Source: Bacteroidota bacterium (GTDB taxonomy: Bacteria; Bacteroidota; Bacteroidia; Cytophagales; Cyclobacteriaceae). Taken from it: DNA of 64,000 nt. The notes beneath the pieces were generated by a model, which was not told where the DNA came from, made no database searches, and saw only the letters and a program-made list of their open reading frames with translations. Shown in pieces: positions 11,162 to 47,269 of the stretch. Every line of letters begins with the position of its first letter. The first letter of the stretch is position 1. The stretch spans positions 1 to 64,000 of the forward strand of contig JAFEAM010000015.1 of assembly GCA_018266395.1 (NCBI GenBank), written 5' to 3'. The translations under genes and the position numbers were made by a program.

Positions 11162-11262
11162 GTTGGTGAGAGGTGAGAGGTAAGTGGTGAGAGGTAAGTG
11201 GTGAGAGGTAAGTGGTGAGAGGTGAAAGGTAAGAGGTAAGTGGTGAGTAGTTGGCGACTACT
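11162..11262 (+). repeat. Heptad array, GTGAGAG/GTAAGTG type
   Basis: About thirteen units of 7 bp in register: GTGAGAG, GTGAGAG, GTAAGTG, GTGAGAG, GTAAGTG and so on, ending GTGAGTAGTTGG. It begins at the stop codon of the preceding gene. The same units recur at 12893-12986 and, inverted, at 13455-13495. Confidence 0.9.
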
Positions 11263-11298
11263 TGCTGCTCCCTCTTGCTGAATTTTGAAATGAATAGG

Positions 11299-11442
11299 TT
11301 CACGCAGAGGCGCAGAGCACGCGGAGATTATTGAAATTAAAGGGTGGTCTGTTCTAGTAATGAAGCATGATTGGACACCAAATGAAGTAAGGCCACTTAT
11401 TTTAAAATGCATTACTCTGCGCCCTCTGCGCCTCTGCGTGAA
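11299..11442 (+). mobile_element. MITE-like element, copy 1
   Basis: Left terminal repeat TTCACGCAGAGGCGCAGAGC (about 28 bp in all) and the inverted right end CTCTGCGCCTCTGCGTGAA. The interior is unique (GATTATTGAAATTAAAGGGT, GGTCTGTT, ATGATTGGACACC, AAATGAAGTAAGGC) and is conserved in copies 2 and 3. No coding capacity. Non-autonomous element inferred from the terminal inverted repeats, constant length and unrelated flanks. Confidence 0.8.
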
Positions 11443-11467
11443 ATACATTAAATACAGAAAATTAGGC

Positions 11468-11616
11468 TCACGCAGAGGCGCAGAGCTCGCGGAGATTATT
11501 GAAATTAAAAGGGTGGTCTGTTATTGTAATGAAGTGAAGCATAATTGGACACCATATGAAGCAAGGCTAGCTATTTCAAAATGCATTTCTCTGCGCTCTC
11601 TGCGCCTCTGCGTGAA
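11468..11616 (+). mobile_element. MITE-like element, copy 2
   Basis: Same termini as copy 1 and a matching interior (GATTATTGAAATTAAAAGGG, TGGTCTGTTATTGTAATGAA, ATTGGACACCATATGAAGCA). It lies 25 bp after copy 1 in the same orientation and 45 bp before the PSD-like gene, so it may carry or displace that gene's promoter. Confidence 0.8.
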
Positions 11617-11660
11617 ATATTCAATTCCTCACTACCTTCACTTCCCCAAACCCAATCCCC

Positions 11661-12935
11661 ATGAAAAAGTCCCTCCTCTCCCTTCTGGCCGTCATTCTTC
11701 TGGTGGTCACCTCCTGCGGGCCGAAGAAATCTGACAACAAGGCAACGTACGGCGAAGCCACTCAACAGCTGGTGGCGCTGGTGGAACAAAACCCGGAGCT
11801 GAAGGCCAACCTCCAGAAATCCATCGAGCAGGCCAAACAGATCAACCCCGACACGGCGACCAATCGCGCACAGACACTGGAAGACTACTACGCTTCCTTC
11901 TCCCGGATGGAGACTTCCATGCCATGGATGGTGCTGAAGAAAGAGAAGGTCAATGTATTCGACGATATCATGCAGGGATTCTGCTCCATATACTTCATCA
12001 TCGATCAGCCTCTCCCCGAACTGGAAGGCAAAGGTTTCCGCAACACGCTCCAGTATGTTCAACCTTTCTCGGGATGGATGACGCAGTTCAACAAGTCGTG
12101 GGGGAAATACCTCGACACGGAAGCCTCCTGGAACGAGAGCTACTACCAGCTCGTCCTCGCCGACCCGATGTTCGGACTGCAGAATGGATGGTATGAAGAT
12201 CCGTCCCACTGGAAGACGTTCAACCAGTTCTTCGCCCGTCACCTCAGCTCGCCGGCAGCGCGTCCCATCGCCTCTCCTGAAGATGACGCCGTGGTGGCCT
12301 CTTTCGCCGACTCCGAACCGCAAGGCGTGTGGGCGGTCGATGGCAGCTCCAACCTGGTGGAAGAGGCTGCGGTAAAGTCAGCCACTGTAAAATCTGTCAG
12401 CGACCTCCTCGGCAACGACAATCCCTACAAGGATGCATTTGCCAACGGCACGTTCATGCACTCCTTCCTCAACGTGAACGACTACCACCGCTATCACTTC
12501 TCACTGGGCGGCACGGTCAAGGATGCGCGCATCATCAACGGCATAAACCCCAGCGGCGGAATTTTGCAATGGCACCCTGATCAGAAAAGATATTCCTTCA
12601 CGCCTTCCTCCGTGGGATGGCAGATGCTGGAGACCCGCGGCGTGGTCATCCTCGAAACTGAAAAGTACGGCCTCGTGGCATTAGTGCCTATCGGCATGGC
12701 GGTAGTAGGCTCTGTCAACTTTGAAGCGAGCGTCAAGCCCGGCGCCGTGGTGAAGAAGGGCGACCCGCTCGGATGGTTCGCCTTCGGCGGCTCCGACTTC
12801 ATCCTCGTGTTCCAGGACAAAGTGAAGTTCGAGCTACAGGCTGCTAAAAACGAGAGTGGAAGTGGGTATAAGCATATGTTGATGGGAGAGCGACTAGGGG
12901 TGGTGAGTGGTGGGAAGGTAAGTGGTAAGAGGTGA
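11661..12935 (+). CDS. Secreted phosphatidylserine decarboxylase-like lipoprotein
   Basis: 424 residues. A lipoprotein signal (MKKSLLSLLAVILLVVTSCG) is followed by a helical N-terminal region and a PSD domain: FNQFFARHLSS, GTFMHSFLNVNDYHRYHFSL, VALVPIGMAVVGSVNF, VKKGDPLGWFAFGGSDF. GGS at about 376-378 occupies the place of the autocleavage GST/GGS that generates the pyruvoyl cofactor in PSD. The usual PSD is anchored on the cytoplasmic face, so a lipobox in front is unusual. The last dozen residues (VVSGGKVSGKR) are encoded by the heptad array, so the original C-terminus has been replaced or extended. Substrate unproven. Confidence 0.8.
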   Translation: MKKSLLSLLAVILLVVTSCGPKKSDNKATYGEATQQLVALVEQNPELKANLQKSIEQAKQINPDTATNRAQTLEDYYASFSRMETSMPWMVLKKEKVNVFDDIMQGFCSIYFIIDQPLPELEGKGFRNTLQYVQPFSGWMTQFNKSWGKYLDTEASWNESYYQLVLADPMFGLQNGWYEDPSHWKTFNQFFARHLSSPAARPIASPEDDAVVASFADSEPQGVWAVDGSSNLVEEAAVKSATVKSVSDLLGNDNPYKDAFANGTFMHSFLNVNDYHRYHFSLGGTVKDARIINGINPSGGILQWHPDQKRYSFTPSSVGWQMLETRGVVILETEKYGLVALVPIGMAVVGSVNFEASVKPGAVVKKGDPLGWFAFGGSDFILVFQDKVKFELQAAKNESGSGYKHMLMGERLGVVSGGKVSGKR

Positions 12936-12986
12936 GTGGTGAGAGGTAAGAGGTAAGTGGTGGGAAGGTGAGTGGTGAATGGTCAG
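12893..12986 (+). repeat. Heptad array, left arm flanking four-helix-bundle gene
   Basis: GGGGTGGTGAGTGGTGGGAA, then GTAAGTG, GTAAGAG, GTGAGTG, GTGAGAG, GTAAGAG, GTAAGTG, GTGGGAAG, GTGAGTG. It overlaps the last codons of the PSD-like gene and is complementary to the array at 13455-13495 on the other side of the next gene. Confidence 0.9.
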
Positions 12987-13064
12987 GAATTCCTCAATTA
13001 AATGAATCAGGTTTTAATTGGCCGGAAAGAGAGGAAGGGTTGGGCGGCTGCGCTACTTTTGTTT

Positions 13065-13451
13065 ATGCCGCTCGCAGACAGATTTATCGAACTGGAGGTT
13101 TACAAACTTTCCCGAAGCTTGAGTCTGGAGATCTATGAATTCAGTAAGTCGTTTCCTCCGCAGGAGGTCTACTCGTTGACCAGTCAGGTCCGCCGCTCAT
13201 CAAGGTCGATTGGTGCACAGATAGCCGAGGCTTGGGGCAAAAGGCAATACGCAAAACATTTCGTAAGCAAACTGACTGATGCAAATGCCGAACTATTGGA
13301 AACACAACATTGGATTGGGACTGCTGTCGATTGCGGCTATCTCGAAAAAGATAAAGGGGATCAACTTCATCATGACTACGACAGGTTTTCCAGGATGCTG
13401 AATTCAATGATCCTGAAAGCCGACAAGTTCTGCAAACCCTTCGAAAAGTAG
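13065..13451 (+). CDS. Four helix bundle protein (IVP/S23 family)
   Basis: 128 residues from the ATG at 13065 (MPLADRFIELEVYKLSRSLS); an in-frame upstream ATG at 13002 would add array-derived sequence. Family hallmarks: ELEVYKLSRSLSLEIYEFSK, FPPQEVYSLTSQVRRSSRSI, GAQIAEAWGKRQYAKHFVSK, ANAELLETQHWIGTAVDCGY. The family includes proteins encoded in 23S rRNA intervening sequences and the Avd accessory protein of diversity-generating retroelements; it binds nucleic acid through a basic pentamer surface. The gene is framed by inverted heptad arrays (12893-12986 and 13455-13495), with the right arm starting 3 bp after the stop. Confidence 0.9.
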   Translation: MPLADRFIELEVYKLSRSLSLEIYEFSKSFPPQEVYSLTSQVRRSSRSIGAQIAEAWGKRQYAKHFVSKLTDANAELLETQHWIGTAVDCGYLEKDKGDQLHHDYDRFSRMLNSMILKADKFCKPFEK

Positions 13452-13454
13452 AAC

Positions 13455-13495
13455 CGCTCACCTTTCACTACTCACCTCTCACCTCTCACCACCCA
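13455..13495 (-). repeat. Heptad array, right (inverted) arm
   Basis: CTCACCT, TTCACTA, CTCACCT, CTCACCT, CTCACCACCC: the reverse complement of the GTGAGAG/GTGAGTA units at 12893-12986. The two arms could pair around the four-helix-bundle gene. Confidence 0.85.
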
Positions 13496-17326: not shown

Positions 17327-17671
17327 CGGAATAGGTTTTCTGATGTTTGAATGTAGTGAGGGGGAGTGAGAAATCAAATGGATGGAGCTGTGGGCACGAG
17401 AGAAGAGAATGCAGGCTCACGCAGGAGGCGCAGAGCTCGCAGAGATTATTTTGGAAGAACAAGGTTATCTGATCATCATGTGAATACCCGATGCAGAAAG
17501 CGAAAGCTGAATGACAGGTTCACGCAGAGGCGCAGAGCTCGCAGAGTAATGCATGTAAATATATAGACCTACTTCATTTGATGTATCCAATCATCCCTAA
17601 TTTACAAGTACAGACTACCCTTTAACTTCAATAATCTCTGCGTACTCCGCGCCTCTGCGTGAAACAACTTA
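17327..17671. other. Non-coding gap with repeat elements
   Basis: Contains a half-copy of the MITE-like end at 17416-17450 (CTCACGCAGGAGGCGCAGAG, CTCGCAGAGATTATTTTGGA) and the full element at 17519-17663. No gene supported. Confidence 0.75.
17519..17663 (-). mobile_element. MITE-like element, copy 3 (inverted)
   Basis: Starts TTCACGCAGAGGCGCAGAGC and ends CGCGCCTCTGCGTGAA. Read on the minus strand, the interior (GATTATTGAAGTTAAAGGGT, AGTCTGTACTTGTAA, GGATGATTGGATAC, AAATGAAGTAGG) matches copies 1 and 2. It ends 9 bp from the stop codon of the GxxExxY gene. Confidence 0.8.
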
Positions 17672-18058
17672 TTATTCAAGCTTATTAACAATTCTTCTAA
17701 TTCCAAACTTGATTAGCTCCACATTGAAATTAATCAGCAGTCCAACGTGAACGTCCGCGAGCCTGAGGTATGTGAGCAGTTGTTTAGCATGAACTGGTAA
17801 TACCTGTTCCACGGACTTTATTTCCAAGATCACTCTGTTCTCAACAATCATATCAGCCCGATAGCCCATCTCGAGTTTCACACTTTCATATACAATAGGT
17901 ATGGGCACCTGTCTTTCAAACTTGAGCCCAGCCATATTCAATTCATACGCAAGTGTATGTTCATAGGCTGACTCCAGCAGACCCGGACCGAGCCGCCGAT
18001 GTATTTTCAACGCACAATCAATCACAACGCCAGTGATATGGTTTTCGCTAGTCATCAT
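17672..18058 (-). CDS. GxxExxY protein (PD-(D/E)XK nuclease-like)
   Basis: 128 residues, full length. The naming motif is at about 26-32 (GLLESAY within LGPGLLESAYEHTLAYEL). The nuclease-fold motif follows: GYRADMIVENRVILEIKSVE, with D69, E79 and K81 in the D...ExK arrangement, and HAKQLLTYLRL containing Q93, then GLLINFN near the end. The biological role of the family is not established. Here the gene is bracketed by the TTCACGCAGAGGCGC repeat: the complete element ends 9 bp 3', and three further repeat copies lie upstream (18150-18520). Confidence 0.93.
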   Translation of the reverse strand: MMTSENHITGVVIDCALKIHRRLGPGLLESAYEHTLAYELNMAGLKFERQVPIPIVYESVKLEMGYRADMIVENRVILEIKSVEQVLPVHAKQLLTYLRLADVHVGLLINFNVELIKFGIRRIVNKLE

Positions 18059-18099
18059 TTAAGTAAAAATAGCCTGGACCAATTTCCGGCGCAATCCGG

Positions 18100-18540
18100 T
18101 TTTCATTACAATGTGAAGCCTCTAAGCAATACAACAATCAATCACAAATAATCCTCTGCGAGCTCTGCGCCTCTGCGTGAAATAATTCCATCTTTTCACC
18201 CTCTCCAGTGTCTCCGGCACCACCGCGCATACCAGCGTATTCCCGTATGTCAAATCAATGATCTGGTTTTCATTACAATGTGGAGGCTCTAAGCAAGACA
18301 ACAATCAACAAATAATCCGCTGCGAGCTCTGCGCCTCTGCGTGAAATAATTCCAGCAATAGCCTCTTTTCACCCTCTCCACTGTTTCCAACACCACCGCG
18401 CAAACCAGCGTATTCCCGTATGTCAAATCAATGATCTGATTTTCATTACAATGTGAAGCCTCTAAGCAAGACAACAATCAACAAATAATCCTCTGCGAGC
18501 TCTGCGCCTCTGCGTGAAATAATTCCATCAATAGCCTCAG
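18100..18540 (-). repeat. Tandem repeat array of ~170 bp units containing YkgJ gene 3'-end fragments
   Basis: Units begin TTTTCATTACAATG at 18100, 18267 and 18440 (periods 167 and 173 bp). Each holds CTCTGCGCCTCTGCGTGAAA and, after it, CACCCTCTCCA...CGTATTCCCGTATGTCAAAT, the latter homologous to 18563-18635 inside the 3' end of the YkgJ gene. In translation the two fragments read IIDLTYGNTLVCAVV against IMDLTYKNTLVCPAV in the intact gene, then run into FTQRRRAR from the repeat. They are pseudogene fragments without start codons of their own. Confidence 0.85.
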
Positions 18541-19030: not shown

Positions 19031-19040
19031 ACTTAAATAT

Positions 19041-19110
19041 ATCAGATTTCAGATTTCAGATCTCAGATAATCTCAGATCTCAAATTTCAGATCTCAGGTT
19101 TCAGGTGAAA
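19041..19110 (-). repeat. Heptad array TCAGATY, left arm
   Basis: TCAGATT, TCAGATT, TCAGATC, TCAGATAA, TCTCAGATC, TCAAATT, TCAGATC, TCAGGTT, TCAGGTG: period 7 with one interruption. It overlaps the last codons of the four-helix-bundle gene (encoding HLKPEI) and is the inverse of 19637-19665. Confidence 0.9.
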
Positions 19111-19500
19111 GGTTAAGGGGCGGAATTTTGTGCCGGTATATTCGCTTTGTTTAACGTAGTGAATAAAGCCCGCCAGCATTTTTGAAATGGATACAACATC
19201 TCTGTACAATTCATCGAATTCCTCTTGCGTGAAGTGACCTCTATCACGGGCTCTGTACAACTGCGACCTTAGCTCTCCCGCCGAACCTTTCGCAACAGAG
19301 AGGAATTGAATCAATTCTCTCCTCCCATCCCGCTCGTATCCTTCCGCAATGTTATCTGTAATAGATCCTGCGGATCTCAGGATCTGGTCTTTCAATCCAA
19401 AATCCTTCTTGAGCGAACTATTCTCGCTTAGTTCAAAAACTCTTCGGCATAGGTCATTTGCCTTTTGCCATACCGGTAGTTCTTCAAAAGTTGCACCCAT
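19087..19500 (-). CDS. Four helix bundle protein (IVP/S23 family), second copy
   Basis: 137 residues from the ATG at 19500 (MGATFEELPVWQKANDLCRR); the frame extends to 19602, but the family starts at EELPVWQKA. Typical strings: LPVWQKANDLCRRVFELSEN, FGLKDQILRSAGSITDNIAE, GYERDGRRELIQFLSVAKGS, AGELRSQLYRARDRGHFTQE. It belongs to a different subgroup from the copy at 13065 (LPVWQKA versus LEVYKLS), so the two are not a recent duplication. It is again framed by inverted heptad arrays, and the terminal HLKPEI is encoded by array sequence. Confidence 0.9.
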   Translation of the reverse strand: MGATFEELPVWQKANDLCRRVFELSENSSLKKDFGLKDQILRSAGSITDNIAEGYERDGRRELIQFLSVAKGSAGELRSQLYRARDRGHFTQEEFDELYRDVVSISKMLAGFIHYVKQSEYTGTKFRPLTFHLKPEI

Positions 19501-19636
19501 TGTTACGATGATCAGGCCCAAATAAAATCCGAATTTGTACATATAAGAATGGTAAGCCCTGCCTGTTTTCCTGATCTTCTTGCCGATCGTGGACAAATGC
19601 ATTCCACTTTTGTCAAAACCCGATCAGCGGAACCAT

Positions 19637-19665
19637 GAAATCTGAGATCTGAGATCTGAAATTTT
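19637..19665 (+). repeat. Heptad array, right (inverted) arm
   Basis: GAAATCTGAGATCTGAGATC followed by TGAAATTTT. It is the reverse complement of the units at 19041-19110 and lies between the divergent four-helix-bundle and DUF1801 genes. Confidence 0.85.
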
Positions 19666-19691: not shown

Positions 19692-20102
19692 ATGGCCGAA
19701 CTAAAGACAAAGAAATCAAAATCAAGCGTCAGTGAATTTTTGAAAGGAATCGAAAACCCACAACGGGTCAAAGACAGCAAGATCATGCTCAAAGTGATGA
19801 AGGAGGCCACAGGTGCCACCGCGAAGATGTGGGGACCGGCCATCATCGGGTTTGGTGATATGAAATTGAAATATGCCAGCGGGCGCGAACTCGACTGGTT
19901 TATCATGGGCTTCTCTCCCCGTAAGGAGGCGCTCGTGCTCTACCAACTGAGCCACGTCGATCCGAAAGCCCTCGGCACCATTCTGGGAAAAGTGAAAACC
20001 GGAAAAGGCTGCATCTACGTGAAGAGCCTCGAAGAAGTGGATACCGCTGCGCTCACCAAACTGCTTAAATCATCTGTGAAAACCTTAACCAAAGCCAAAT
20101 GA
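19692..20102 (+). CDS. DUF1801 domain-containing protein
   Basis: 136 residues of the YdhG-like DUF1801 fold: VSEFLKGIENPQRVKDSKIM, MWGPAIIGFGDMKLKYASGR, WFIMGFSPRKEALVLYQLSH, then TGKGCIYVKSLEEVD. A cytoplasmic protein of unknown biochemical function. Its stop overlaps the start of the M24 gene (ATGA at 20099-20102), so the two are probably co-translated although no functional link is known. Confidence 0.9.
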   Translation: MAELKTKKSKSSVSEFLKGIENPQRVKDSKIMLKVMKEATGATAKMWGPAIIGFGDMKLKYASGRELDWFIMGFSPRKEALVLYQLSHVDPKALGTILGKVKTGKGCIYVKSLEEVDTAALTKLLKSSVKTLTKAK

Positions 20103-21496
20103 CCTCCGACCGCCGATCTTTCCTCCGCAATATGGGACTGGGTCTCGCCGCCGCTTCACTGAGCGCCGAGGGACTTGCCGCCACACCTGCTGGAGGCTCT
20201 GAAAGTCTTTTCGTCACCGACCGTGTGCAACCCACCCCTGCCCCTATTGGCTATGACCGCCTCCCGTTGGAATGGTACAAGGCCACCACACAGCGGCTAA
20301 AAGACAAATTGAAAAGCAAAGGTGTCGACGCGATTCTGCTGGAGAGTGATCTGAACAAGGTGTACTTCTCAGGATGCTTCAGGCACAGCGGCGAGCGCAC
20401 GACCTGGGTCATGTTTCCCATGAACGAAAAGGACACAGCCTATTGGTATGCGCCTGCCATCGACCGTGACCTCATCCGCACGTGGTGGTGCACGGAGCTG
20501 GAATATTATTTCTGCTATCCCCATGCCGACGGTGGTTATCCCAACAAAGGCCAACTGGTCAAAGGAAACACGAAAGACATCTTTGTGTGGATGCTCGAAG
20601 GTCTGCGCAAGCGCGGTCTTGACGGAAAGACCATAGGCATTGACAAGAACCTCTCACCGGCACAACTGGAAACTGCCAAGAAGGTGTTGCCACAATCCAA
20701 GTGGGTGAACATCTTCGACGACTGCCTGGGGATGCGCATCATCAAGACGCCGGAAGAGATCGCATTGTTTCAGCGCGCTTACCGATACTTTGACAAGGTC
20801 CATGCCTTCTCCCGTGATTTCGTTCTGGAGCATGGTACGAATGTGACGGATTTCGAAATTGGCCAGGCCCTGCAGGCCTATGCCATCAAGCTCATGATGG
20901 CCGATGTGAAATATGACGGCCGTCCCCACACCGCTGTTGGTATCGACTCCACTGCCCACTATGTGCGCACGGGCGTGAGCACAGCCTATCCCCATCCGAA
21001 CCAGTTCTTCTACAACAAAGTGCAACGGGGACAACCCCTGTACATCAACACCGACATCAGCCTCGGAGGCATGGGAGGCGAAGGATACCGCAACTACCTA
21101 ATCGCACCGTGGACGGACAAGCAGGACAAGCTCTGGCAGGTCGTGGCGGAGACCGTGCAGATAATGGCGGAAGAAACCAAACCCGGCGTCCTCTGCTGCG
21201 ATGTGGCCTATAAGATCCACCAGCATCAGATCAAGAACGGCATGCAGGAATTTATCTATCACCGTCCGGGTCATGGAACCGGTCAGAATGGTGAAGGCCA
21301 CCAGGCGCCTTTCATAGCACTTGGTGACACCACGGTAATCCAGGAAGGAATGATGTTCTCCGTCGAGCCCGGAATGTATGACGAAGCCGGCGGCATCGGC
21401 GTCAACCCCAGCGACAATCTGCTCGTTACCAAAACCGGAAGCGTACTGCAGAGCAGGGTGCCGTTTTCGAAGGAGTGGAGTTATTTGAAAGTTTAG
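20099..21496 (+). CDS. Tat-exported M24 family (creatinase/Xaa-Pro peptidase-like) protein
   Basis: 465 residues. The N-terminus MTSDRRSFLRNMGLGLAAAS is a twin-arginine signal. A creatinase-N-like domain (~60-210) precedes the pita-bread domain. Motifs are recognisable but altered: INTDISLGGMGGEGYRN stands where the DxG...GYxxD block has its two Asp ligands (the second is Asn), GHGTGQNGEGHQAP keeps the His, FSVEPGMYDEAGG keeps the first Glu, and GVNPSDNLLVT has Ser where the second Glu ligand is expected. Catalysis may therefore be metal-independent, as in creatinase, or the site may differ. Export makes the periplasm the likely site. Confidence 0.88.
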   Translation: MTSDRRSFLRNMGLGLAAASLSAEGLAATPAGGSESLFVTDRVQPTPAPIGYDRLPLEWYKATTQRLKDKLKSKGVDAILLESDLNKVYFSGCFRHSGERTTWVMFPMNEKDTAYWYAPAIDRDLIRTWWCTELEYYFCYPHADGGYPNKGQLVKGNTKDIFVWMLEGLRKRGLDGKTIGIDKNLSPAQLETAKKVLPQSKWVNIFDDCLGMRIIKTPEEIALFQRAYRYFDKVHAFSRDFVLEHGTNVTDFEIGQALQAYAIKLMMADVKYDGRPHTAVGIDSTAHYVRTGVSTAYPHPNQFFYNKVQRGQPLYINTDISLGGMGGEGYRNYLIAPWTDKQDKLWQVVAETVQIMAEETKPGVLCCDVAYKIHQHQIKNGMQEFIYHRPGHGTGQNGEGHQAPFIALGDTTVIQEGMMFSVEPGMYDEAGGIGVNPSDNLLVTKTGSVLQSRVPFSKEWSYLKV

Positions 21497-21616
21497 GTGC
21501 TGGCGGCTGGGTGCTGGCGGCTGGCTTTGCACTCAAAGCCCAGGCATACTCTGCCTATTAAGTATTTGAGCCATGCCAGTCTTCGAACCCAGCAGCTAGC
21601 AGCCAGTAGCCAGCAC
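21497..21616. repeat. Inverted pair of heptad arrays, GCTGGCG type
   Basis: GTGCTGGCGGCTGGGTGCTG and continuing GCGGCTGGC units at 21498-21525, then an interior of ~60 bp, then AGCAGCTAGCAGCCAGTAGC, CAGCACC at 21590-21617. Period 7 in both arms and mutually complementary. It fills the whole gap between the convergent M24 and nuclease genes and reaches the stop codon of both. Confidence 0.85.
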
Positions 21617-24460
21617 CTATCTCCGACACATCCCTTTATACAAACACCACTCACATGCTGGCTCGTACGTGGTTTGCCTGAAGGGAACGGAGGGGTCAAA
21701 GATTTCCTGGACGGTTTGTTCCAGAAGTTTGCCGAATTCGTCGAGGTAGGGCGTTGCATCGGAGATCGTGGTCCTGGAGTAGACCTTGCCCATGGTATGA
21801 CCAAAACCTACACGGCTGTCGAAAAGACTTTTGCGGTTGATGAGTCCCGGCATGAGCTTTTCGCCCGACAAGGGATACATTAAGCGGAAGGCAAAGGCAT
21901 AGTGGAAAGTCTGGAATGCCGCCTTGTTGCGTTTGCCGTCACGGGTAAACAACGCAGGAATACTTTCAAAATTGGAGTCATCACCGCCGGTTTTGTAGTC
22001 GATGATGCGTGTCACGGTATCCTTTCTGTCTGCGCGGTCAATCTTCCCGCCAATCTTCACCACTCTCCCATCGGAGACTGTAATATCGTGAGCGAACTCA
22101 TGCTCCAATAACAATATCTGGAACGGTGCGTGTTGTTCGTCCTTCTCCAGGATCTTCAGCAGGAAGGCCAGTGCGCTCTCTTTAACCACCACCCGTTGCC
22201 CTTCATAGACAACAGCTTCATGCTCGCGCAATTTGTAGAGTTTAATAAAAGCCTTGTCGATGTACTGCTCCATCACGGCCCGTTGGTTGCGTAGATCCTC
22301 AGGCTTCACCCATCCGTTATCCTTTTGTCTCAGGTCGTCATAGAACCAGTGGATGGAGTCGTGGATGATATTCCCGAACACCCTTGCGTCCACGTCCTCA
22401 TCGATCTGATCTGCCTCCATTAGTCGTGCGACATGTTTGAGATAGAATCGCAGGCTGCATTCGATATAGTCATTGAGGTGCGATGGTGACAGCCCTCGTG
22501 CCTCGGGATTGGAGGCGGGAACATAGCGGTTGAGCTGTTCCATCACTGCGCTGGTCTTTGGAATTTCAATTTGCCTCGGCAGATGAGGATCAACAGGGTT
22601 GTAAAGAATCTTCCTTTCTATCTGCAGTCCGGACTCCAGCAGCACCTGCTGCACAAACCTGCTCATCTCGCCATTGCCGATGATGTCAGGTTCTGTGTTG
22701 TAATAGAAGTACACATTCTTCGATCGCTGGAGGAGCCGGTAGAACAGGTAGGCATAGATGGCGTCGCGGTGATCATTGGTTGGCAGACCATAAGCCCGTC
22801 GGACTGCGAAAGGGATGTACGACCCTTGAGATGCCGCGGCAGGCAACATCCCCTCATTGAGGGAGAGGAAGATCACGTTATCGAAATCCAGGTTACGCGT
22901 CTCCAGCACACCCATCACCTGGAGGCCGCGGAGTGGTTCGCCGCTGAAAGGCATGCGTTGTGATTGAATCACCTGACGCAACAGCTTCTGGTATCCCCTC
23001 CAGTCGATGGTAGTGGAATCTTTGAGTATGGCATCCAATCCGGCGAGCTGCTTGTAAAAATGGTATGCATATTCCCGGTCGAAACTCTGCTTGCCGGCAA
23101 AACTGGTTCCCAGGAAACGCACAACATCCAGCAGGTAATGCGTAACCTGTGTTGGCTCCACCAACCGGAACAAGAGCGGGAAGACAGGATGCTCGCTCTG
23201 TAGATCATCAATGTTCACAAATACCCTGTTCCGGGTAATGATCTCATTGCGCATGTCCTCCGCTTCCTTTGCAGCAAGGGACACCACGTAAGAGTGACCC
23301 AGGATAGCCAGCACCTCGCGGTAGCTGAAAGTATTTTTCCGCTGTCGCAGCTGCATTTCCACCAGGAGATCCACCAGGCTGTAGAGAGGCGTCTCGCGAA
23401 GGGGGTAACCCATCGTGACGTTGATATCTTGCAACTCATCGGGCAGGGAATGAAGCACAGGCAACAGCATGGACTCGTCCGGGAGGACAATGACAGTCCT
23501 TGCGAGTTCGACAGCCATATCTTCCCTCTTCATCCCTTCTAGAATCTCCGCCACCTTGCCTCCGGCCAATTTTGCCTGTCCAATGCGGAGTGGAACACCG
23601 GTCAGCTCAAGCTTCTTGGGCGACTTGCGAATATTGTCAGGCGCATCCGGTGGGAAGGTGGACTTCAGACTGGAATGATCCCGGTATTGGCGAAGGAACA
23701 AACCTGCCTCCTGCAGGCGGTCTTCCATATAATAGGCATCGGTATCCCAGAATACCTGGGCGCCGCCTTCAACCATCTTGCTGATGAGAACAGCCTCTGC
23801 CTTGGTGAGTGCATTGAATCCCGCGAAGACGACATTGGAATTGTCGGCGGTTTTGGCGGCCTTGGATATTCTTTCCGCCACCTCCCGGTGAATCATGCCC
23901 TCGTAACCCATCCCGTCCTTTCGGAGTCCCTTGGTGTAGTCTGAATATATCTTTGGAAGCTTCTGCCACAACAGCAGGAAGGCATCCTTGGTATTGGATT
24001 CTTTCTCGCTGAAGTGTATCCAGAAGTTCTTGAGGAAAGTCTTTTGTTCGTCGGTGAGGTAGTCAAACACTTCATCGAGTTCCTTGATCTTACTCAGGTC
24101 CTTGAACAGATGAGCAGCGTTGACCATGTACTTGTCCAACTCGTCGAAATCCCGCAACAACATGTCACCCCAGAAGTAGAAGCGGTCAAAGGCCTCCTGG
24201 CGCTTCAGTGTTTCATTGTAAACCTGGTGCAGCCTGTAGATGAGGGTAAGACGGTCAGGCTCCAGAAGTTTACTTTCCTTTCTGAAATACTCTTCAATAC
24301 TAAACAGTCGCGGTGCCCATTTGGGCTTTTCCAGGCTTTGAGCAAGGTGATGTTCGAAATAGAGTGCAGCCCTCCGGTTGGGAAAAATAAAAGTAAGCTC
24401 ATCGAGCGTGGTCCGCTCCTTCACCATCTTCTCAGCCAGCTCTTTCAGAAACGGTTTCAT
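21617..24460 (-). CDS. AddB/RexB-like PD-(D/E)XK nuclease, recombination repair
   Basis: 947 residues. Begins with an inactivated helicase-like half (LTFIFPNRRAALYFEHHLAQ, TVIVLPDESMLLPVLHSLPD, GLQVMGVLETRNLDFDNVIF) and ends with a RecB-family nuclease: GGKIDRADRK and RIIDYKTGG at about 804-825, where the D and DYK carry the metal site. Four cysteines suitable for the AddB-type Fe-S cluster are visible: one in IECSLRFYLKHVA near 670 and three in CEWCLYKGMC at 936-945. It partners the helicase encoded immediately upstream (1-bp overlap) for double-strand end processing. Confidence 0.92.
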   Translation of the reverse strand: MKPFLKELAEKMVKERTTLDELTFIFPNRRAALYFEHHLAQSLEKPKWAPRLFSIEEYFRKESKLLEPDRLTLIYRLHQVYNETLKRQEAFDRFYFWGDMLLRDFDELDKYMVNAAHLFKDLSKIKELDEVFDYLTDEQKTFLKNFWIHFSEKESNTKDAFLLLWQKLPKIYSDYTKGLRKDGMGYEGMIHREVAERISKAAKTADNSNVVFAGFNALTKAEAVLISKMVEGGAQVFWDTDAYYMEDRLQEAGLFLRQYRDHSSLKSTFPPDAPDNIRKSPKKLELTGVPLRIGQAKLAGGKVAEILEGMKREDMAVELARTVIVLPDESMLLPVLHSLPDELQDINVTMGYPLRETPLYSLVDLLVEMQLRQRKNTFSYREVLAILGHSYVVSLAAKEAEDMRNEIITRNRVFVNIDDLQSEHPVFPLLFRLVEPTQVTHYLLDVVRFLGTSFAGKQSFDREYAYHFYKQLAGLDAILKDSTTIDWRGYQKLLRQVIQSQRMPFSGEPLRGLQVMGVLETRNLDFDNVIFLSLNEGMLPAAASQGSYIPFAVRRAYGLPTNDHRDAIYAYLFYRLLQRSKNVYFYYNTEPDIIGNGEMSRFVQQVLLESGLQIERKILYNPVDPHLPRQIEIPKTSAVMEQLNRYVPASNPEARGLSPSHLNDYIECSLRFYLKHVARLMEADQIDEDVDARVFGNIIHDSIHWFYDDLRQKDNGWVKPEDLRNQRAVMEQYIDKAFIKLYKLREHEAVVYEGQRVVVKESALAFLLKILEKDEQHAPFQILLLEHEFAHDITVSDGRVVKIGGKIDRADRKDTVTRIIDYKTGGDDSNFESIPALFTRDGKRNKAAFQTFHYAFAFRLMYPLSGEKLMPGLINRKSLFDSRVGFGHTMGKVYSRTTISDATPYLDEFGKLLEQTVQEIFDPSVPFRQTTYEPACEWCLYKGMCRR

Positions 24461-46841: not shown

Positions 46842-46925
46842 ACTGGCCGGGTTTGGCCGGATCTGGCCGGTATTGGCCGGATTTGGCAGAACTTGGCAGG
46901 GCCTTCGGAACTTTTGGCAGAACGT
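46842..46925. repeat. Decamer array, TTGGCCGGAT type
   Basis: CTGGCCGGGT, TTGGCCGGAT, CTGGCCGGTA, TTGGCCGGAT, TTGGCAGAAC, TTGGCAGGGC in 10-bp register. Shares the GCCGGAT unit with the array at 10301-10420. Confidence 0.8.
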
Positions 46926-46990
46926 AACTGGGTAGTCAAAAGCGGTCTATAGAACGTGGCCGGGTCGTCTGAAGAATTCTCGAGCACAGT

Positions 46991-47098
46991 CAAAATACAT
47001 ACAAAACACATTCAAAAGCGCGCCTATACAACGTCTATAAAACGTCTATAAAAAGTGTATAGCGGGTCTATGGCAGGTGTATAGCGGGTATATAGCGG
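46991..47098. repeat. 10-11-bp array, TATA-rich
   Basis: CATACAAAAC, ACATTCAAAA, then ACAACGTCTAT, AAAACGTCTAT, AAAAAGTGTAT, AGCGGGTCTAT, GGCAGGTGTAT, AGCGGGTATAT: an 11-bp unit ending in CTAT/TGTAT, i.e. about one helical turn. Confidence 0.8.
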
Positions 47099-47133
47099 AA
47101 CATCGCGGATAAGAGTGGGGAGTCTGAAGGAAC

Positions 47134-47263
47134 GGCTGCTGGCTTTTGGCTTCTGGCCGCTGGCAGGACATCCCTGGCTTCGACTTGAGTCAAACTTACT
47201 ATCAGAAAAATCGCATCGAAATTGGAAGGCCAGCCAGTAGCCAGCAGCTAGCATCCAGCAGCC
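47134..47263. repeat. Inverted pair of heptad arrays, CTGGCTT/AGCCAGT
   Basis: Left arm GGCTGCTGGCTTTTGGCTTC plus TGGCCGCTGGCAGG; right arm GGCCAGCCAGTAGCCAGCAG plus CTAGCATCCAGCAGCC. Interior about 60 bp. It ends 6 bp from the stop of the arginase-family gene. Confidence 0.8.
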
Positions 47264-47269
47264 GCCCAA

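Follow-up and report, generated by a model that had tools for sequence, protein, structure and literature searches.

Of the systems described so far, the intervening sequences (IVSs) of 23S rRNA that carry an ORF are the closest to the element reported here. The IVS of Coxiella is 428 nt long; according to the available passages of PMC4990558, its ORF is preceded by tandem heptamers, the first of which begins where RNase III cuts, and the terminal stem measures 28 bp. On account of this stem and of the heptamers at the cleavage site, we regard the 23S IVS as the nearest described relative. The same passages state that IVSs have replaced hairpin tetraloops, and note that, more than 25 years on, it is still not clear what 23S IVSs and the S23/IVP proteins do or where they come from (PMC4990558). 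The original prediction for the locus had likened it to ORF-bearing 23S IVSs, a comparison that the heptamers upstream of the Coxiella ORF make apt. No 23S k-mers were present in the loci of the four-helix-bundle (FHB) family collected when this was checked, and the link to IVSs therefore rests on what is available of PMC4990558. The element in our window (the whole stretch of DNA analysed, 64 kb) resembles an ORF-bearing 23S IVS in its IVP/S23-family protein and in its complementary ends, which are predicted to form a stem around the ORF. It differs in that FHB elements occur in protein-coding operons and on plasmids rather than in rRNA, have many lineage-specific heptads, insert near stop codons and have empty sites.

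The STRR, or heptamer repeats, of cyanobacteria are intergenic arrays of 7-bp units, and the units of the element described here are likewise tandem, intergenic and 7 bp long. MITEs and RAYT/REP (IS200-like) elements are small and hairpin-ended and have gene-less relatives; FHB elements share these properties, but have no fixed terminal sequence and no internal transposase. Intergenic arrays of 7-bp units are also described for GGGAATC in Xanthomonas, where they often form inverted pairs (PMC4692102), and for TAACTGA (PMC4679880). As far as the available parts of these two papers extend, STRR, Xanthomonas and TAACTGA arrays lack the FHB partner that distinguishes the present elements, and the repeats treated in PMC4692102 are said there to be generally unassociated with mobile elements. 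Diversity-generating retroelements, in turn, have an FHB protein related to ours, Avd; this homology is noted in the accessible text of PMC10053308, and the FHB proteins match Avd models weakly (NF033474, 20 bits against a cut-off of 80). Unlike those retroelements, the FHB unit is a single ORF without a reverse transcriptase. The full-text literature searched, outside which most subscription papers and preprints lie, yielded no account of FHB genes flanked by inverted heptads.

The elements in the window

The features on which the comparison is based are as follows.

11165..11247, plus strand: solitary GGTGAGA/GGTAAGT array, same unit as the 13-kb element (TRF, array detector)
about 12899..12986, plus strand: left heptad array of GGTGAGA/GGTAAGT units (TRF 12900-12983, inspection, arm alignment)
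13065..13451, plus strand: IVP/FHB gene (PF05635, TIGR02436; distant relative of Avd)
about 13455..13494, minus strand: right heptad array, inverse of the left (TRF 13453-13490, arm alignment)
19036..19108, minus strand: 3'-side array of the second element, CAGATCT/CAGATTT units (TRF, arm alignment)
19087..19602, minus strand: second IVP/FHB gene (PF05635; domain 19171-19485)
19636..19662, plus strand: 5'-side array of the second element, TGAGATC units (TRF, arm alignment)
21497..21619, no strand assigned: gene-less heptad hairpin, CTGGCNN units, loop of ~60 bp (sequence, array detector)
47131..47264, no strand assigned: gene-less heptad hairpin, CTGGCNN units (array detector)

The left array of the 13-kb element is built of GTGAGTGG/GGTAAGT-type units and covers the last codons of the upstream ORF, 11661-12935, together with its new stop. 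In profile searches, the FHB gene matches PF05635 (E = 4.4e-31) and TIGR02436 (E = 4.7e-29); its stop codon lies at 13449-13451, and an alternative in-frame ATG upstream, at 13002, is possible. The two arms align with a score of 50, compared with a maximum of 25 in 20 shuffles, and both have a period of 7, in agreement with the original prediction of an IVP gene set between a heptad array and its inverse. It had also been suggested that a transcript could fold into a stem around the ORF, and the predicted fold of the unit's RNA (z = -3.39, with none of 20 shuffles equally stable) is consistent with this. The unit has one ORF, which matches only models of the IVP/Avd type, and contains no transposase or recombinase. 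The proposed location of this IVP-type module outside rRNA is borne out: nothing in the whole window matched Rfam at the gathering threshold, and the neighbours of the element are protein-coding ORFs. Three genes homologous to the upstream one, at 61-66% identity, diverge from it at the start of the left array and continue for a few residues past that point to stops of their own; neither an FHB gene nor a match to the window's downstream permease was found within up to 1.5 kb on each side of them.

The second element (19.04-19.66 kb, minus strand) has arms that score 57, compared with 20 when shuffled, and a predicted RNA fold with z = -3.85, and the reading frame of its FHB gene terminates within the 3'-side array. 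Of the earlier description of a non-paralogous-looking second example at 19.0-19.7 kb, the inverted arrays were found and the absence of paralogy was not, as this gene also belongs to PF05635 (E = 1.6e-34); it is 28% identical to the first and has a different unit, CAGATCT. The genome carries five PF05635 genes, all five with inverted arms and each with its own unit (CAGATCT, GGTGAGA, CTGGCTN, TGAATGC and GATTTGN). The weakest case is the fifth gene (L005; 32 against 23, best lag 8), the arms of which were missed by our array detector. That detector reported only 15 period-7 arrays in a 484-kb sample of the genome, 11 of them inside the window, and heptad arrays are therefore not a common background.

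Arrays also occur in the window apart from an FHB gene. For the solitary array at 11165-11247, no convincing inverted partner was found within 900 bp. The hairpin at 21497-21619 sits exactly between convergent stops, the TAG of 20099-21496 (plus strand) and the stop of 21617-24460 (minus strand), and is possibly a shared terminator. The stretch 21490-21625 matches just two short sequences elsewhere in the genome, both through its arms, and its loop is therefore not common to other hairpins. Two CTGGC arrays, at 46.57 and 47.13 kb, enclose short tandem arrays (TGGCCGGATT, CTATAAAACGT) at 46844-47098.

Inverted arrays across the family

Arms were assessed by scoring the upstream flank against the reverse-complemented downstream flank and comparing the result with 20 shuffles. 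The pooled set comprised 150 of 153 loci, three with short flanks being dropped, from Bacteroidota, cyanobacterial plasmids and other phyla, with IMG/VR left out. It includes near-duplicates (L066/L020 and L074/L025, on the same contigs, L171/L172 and L175/L176), and one of the searches for relatives took the best 80 matches and is probably biased towards a thiolase-linked subfamily. Complementary flanks scored above all 20 shuffles at 130 of these loci, where about 7 would be expected, and detectable arms were absent at the other 20. Arms of at least 21 bp (n = 108) had a best lag of 7 in 91 cases and of 8 in 12, and the 5' arm was richer in G than in C in 102 of them, C making up 9.8%. Every shuffle was exceeded at 63 of 80 FHB loci of many phyla, at 30 of the 35 scorable loci (of 38) representing relatives of the window gene and plasmids, and on 35 of the 41 scorable contigs among the 42 from IMG/VR on which FHB genes are present; a phage collection gave no match to the single query used.

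The enrichment of inverted short-period arrays that had been proposed as a check was found on comparison with control genes. When arm length and a period of 7 or 8 were both required, 16 of 23 FHB genes qualified, compared with 2 of 261 non-adjacent ORFs from the same regions (20 regions of up to 20 kb, hand-picked around FHB hits, the flanks taken for FHB genes reaching 30 and 10 bp further inwards than those of the controls). Direct neighbours, which may share an array with the FHB gene, qualified in 5 of 42 cases, and a version of the control that used the score only gave 13/23 for FHB genes and 9/297 for controls. The inverted-array architecture thus holds family-wide.

Insertion sites and the pairing of unit with protein

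FHB genes were found by tblastn on 29 plasmids, 23 of them cyanobacterial, and the first nine examined were all framed by arrays. Seven pairs of filled and empty sites were obtained, with an exact duplication in one, a partial one in two and none that is clear in four. Plasmids of Trichormus (L176) and Scytonema (L256) are filled where those of Tolypothrix, N. linckia and Aulosira (L254, L255, L259) are empty; the flanks are 96.9-98.5% identical, the blastn pieces overlap by five bases, and a 5-bp duplication, GTAAT, which includes the TAA stop of the upstream gene, flanks the element on both sides. In Nostoc, the pieces overlap by three bases for pNsp_c (L186) against L184, and L173/L174 has a TTCTA-like repeat at the stop; the plasmids pNsp_a/pC052_D also enter into the comparisons. 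Insertion without clear duplication is seen in Calothrix (L171), N. edaphicum (L169, antisense to its operon), Pseudanabaena (L177) and Picosynechococcus, where PCC 7003 (L301) is filled and PCC 7002 (L303) is empty. The spacers of the empty sites measure -1 to 40 bp in annotated coordinates. Nested arrangements were found as well: in L187, the FHB gene is split, compared with L174, by a hairpin that has the same unit but no gene, and in L174 and L182, gene-less hairpins lie in the loop of another hairpin. From the filled and empty sites of the cyanobacterial relatives we conclude that the unit inserts, as expected from the suggestion that protein and inverted repeats form a mobilisable whole. 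The search for empty sites succeeded for these relatives and failed for the 13-kb copy, for which no near-identical empty site was found.

The left edge of the element is frequently close to the end of a gene. In 95 of 107 loci (from 121, a redundant set), no more than 30 bp separate it from the stop of the upstream gene, gene ends being those of open frames and the heptads themselves containing stops. With one representative for each upstream gene family, 117 of the 121 loci gave 70 groups, of which 58 are inserted in sense and 12 opposite, compared with 126 and 93 for control genes (Fisher p = 1e-4). In-sense sites lie within 15 bp of the upstream stop in 35 of 58 cases and within 30 bp in 47, the control for this distance being measured from an arbitrary pseudo-edge placed 70 bp before each gene. 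A coarser grouping, by any shared flank, reduces 151 loci (the 121 framed ones plus 30 from IMG/VR, the latter excluded from the 70-group analysis) to 16 groups, one of which holds 128 loci; the representatives divide into 9 in sense and 7 opposite, with 6 of the 9 within 30 bp of the upstream stop. The strand preference therefore depends on the way in which redundancy is removed. We judged grouping by any shared flank to be too coarse and prefer that by upstream gene.

The similarity of heptads grows with the identity of the proteins between them. Among protein pairs that are at least 65% identical and have non-homologous flanks (no blastp match at 1e-4 within 1.5 kb, a definition under which contig ends can hide homology), mean heptad similarity was 0.466 (44 pairs, some from near-duplicate loci), compared with a mean of 0.204 and a maximum of 0.241 in 60 shuffles of the same set. 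Three relatives of the window gene from other genera (L140, L144, L145) have units of the GGTAAGT, GGTAAGA/GGTGAGA and GGTAAAA/GGTTAGA types, and no flanking family in common with it. The heptad, in short, differs between FHB lineages and accompanies the protein to unrelated flanks, and for this reason an origin of the heptads in the target site was rejected.

Interpretation and competing explanations

With a probability of roughly 0.77, we take the locus to be an IVS-like insertion element of ~0.5-0.7 kb, consisting of one FHB/IVP gene between inverted arrays of ~7-bp units; the ORF-bearing IVS of 23S rRNA is probably this same element residing in a different host RNA. Such an element would have no promoter of its own and would be expressed from the host transcript. 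Its FHB protein, a relative of Avd, may recognise its own heptad arrays, as DNA or as RNA. Pairing of the arrays would give a hairpin stem, and this hairpin, as for the IVSs of 23S rRNA, would be what is mobilised or processed, with the enzyme for breakage and joining presumably supplied in trans. Gene-less heptad hairpins would then be non-autonomous relatives. FHB proteins match the PDB entries 2gsc and 2rld, and the family is described as a pentamer of four-helix bundles (in a title cited in PMC10053308, and in the available text of PMC4990558). Two tests count against a stem at the level of RNA: the order of unit variants was matched between arms in only 5 of 68 cases at p <= 0.05, and the mismatches of the arms showed no bias towards G.U in the sense RNA (88 against 98). 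Given the unmatched order, we do not claim exact copying of the hairpin. Stops in all three frames were found in 44 of 108 5' arms (mean 29.8 and maximum 43 in 200 phase shuffles), an excess too weak to build on. Co-occurrence does not support a reverse transcriptase or Y1 transposase as an obligatory partner: RVT_1 had no match in this genome nor, for instance, in G018 or G001, both of which have nine FHB genes, and Y1_Tnp had none in G018. A wider proposal, which we make tentatively and consider rather doubtful, is that of a separate class of mobile element, with lineage-specific inverted ~7-bp arrays as ends that are read by an Avd-like FHB ring, targeting of stop codons in sense, possibly via host RNA, and a common origin for 23S IVSs and many orphan heptamer hairpins (STRR).

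A different account would have the FHB genes inherited vertically as members of operons, with the arrays acting as hairpins between cistrons in the processing or stabilisation of polycistronic mRNA and with heptads that change by slippage. The strength of the predicted folds in the window is in keeping with it, as is the recurrence of neighbours: 34 of 106 FHB genes, at 27 of the 20-kb and genome-contig loci and in many genera, have a thiolase gene no more than two genes away, further neighbour families recur, and an FHB gene of Flavobacterium columnare is tabulated between guanylate kinase and nicotinic acid mononucleotide adenylyltransferase in the available part of PMC5524665. The thiolase-linked share strengthens this account slightly; these genes may be old, inherited insertions with a changed unit, or may result from repeated insertion. 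Precise empty sites in closely related plasmids, the retention of the same heptad by related proteins at non-homologous flanks and a copy number that ranges from 0 to 15 per genome all run counter to vertical inheritance, which we therefore regard as unlikely. Among thiolase-adjacent genes, those at L043, L046 and L052, in the window's genus, and at L055, in another family, have different heptads.

Were the arrays instead a separate repeat family, akin to the heptamers of cyanobacterial STRR, with the FHB gene as a passenger in some hairpins, one would expect hairpins without the gene, and these do occur; heptamer arrays have been published for Xanthomonas and Nostoc, and neither 'four helix' nor 'S23' appears in the available text of PMC4692102. 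Against this stand the rarity of arrays in a genome where all five FHB genes have inverted arms, the framing of 130 of 150 loci and the predictability of the heptad from the lineage of the protein, and we consider the passenger role improbable. That the arms are an accident of chance or composition in low-complexity intergenic DNA is scarcely credible: the arms are of low complexity, and 19 of 261 control ORFs beat 20 shuffles on score alone, but few controls remain when arm length and period are required, and the other sets of loci are concordant. The insertion element thus remains our preferred reading, and the occurrence of inverted-heptad FHB units across many bacteria points to a family of very small mobile elements that has so far escaped notice. 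The heptamer arrays of bacteria have so far been catalogued without an owner; empty sites, stop-codon bias and the pairing of protein with unit link them to IVSs, so that the ownership of the arrays and the role and origin of IVSs become testable in laboratory strains.

FHB elements were observed inside CRISPR operons, between cas6 and cas4 in L177 and between cas10 and cmr3 in L301. A figure legend in the available text of PMC10910872 lists 23S rRNA IVP among its abbreviations, an entry that may reflect such insertions. FHB genes in CRISPR or metabolic operons may accordingly be insertions rather than functional partners.

A further gene of the window, encoding a GxxExxY protein (PD-(D/E)XK-like, PF13366) at 17672-18058 on the minus strand, has a CGCAGAG-type array on either side, near 17519-17546 and 18154-18181, the two being inverted relative to each other. 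Inverted arms frame 27 of 32 PF13366 loci, and among arms of at least 21 bp the best lag is 8-10 in 17 of 22, many of them based on CGCAGAG or CGCAAAG, which suggests that GxxExxY is a second protein using the inverted-array architecture. Tandem units of ~174 bp at 11295-11619 and 18094-18538 contain CGCAGAG-type repeats, as around the GxxExxY gene, and may be gene-less relatives of GxxExxY elements.
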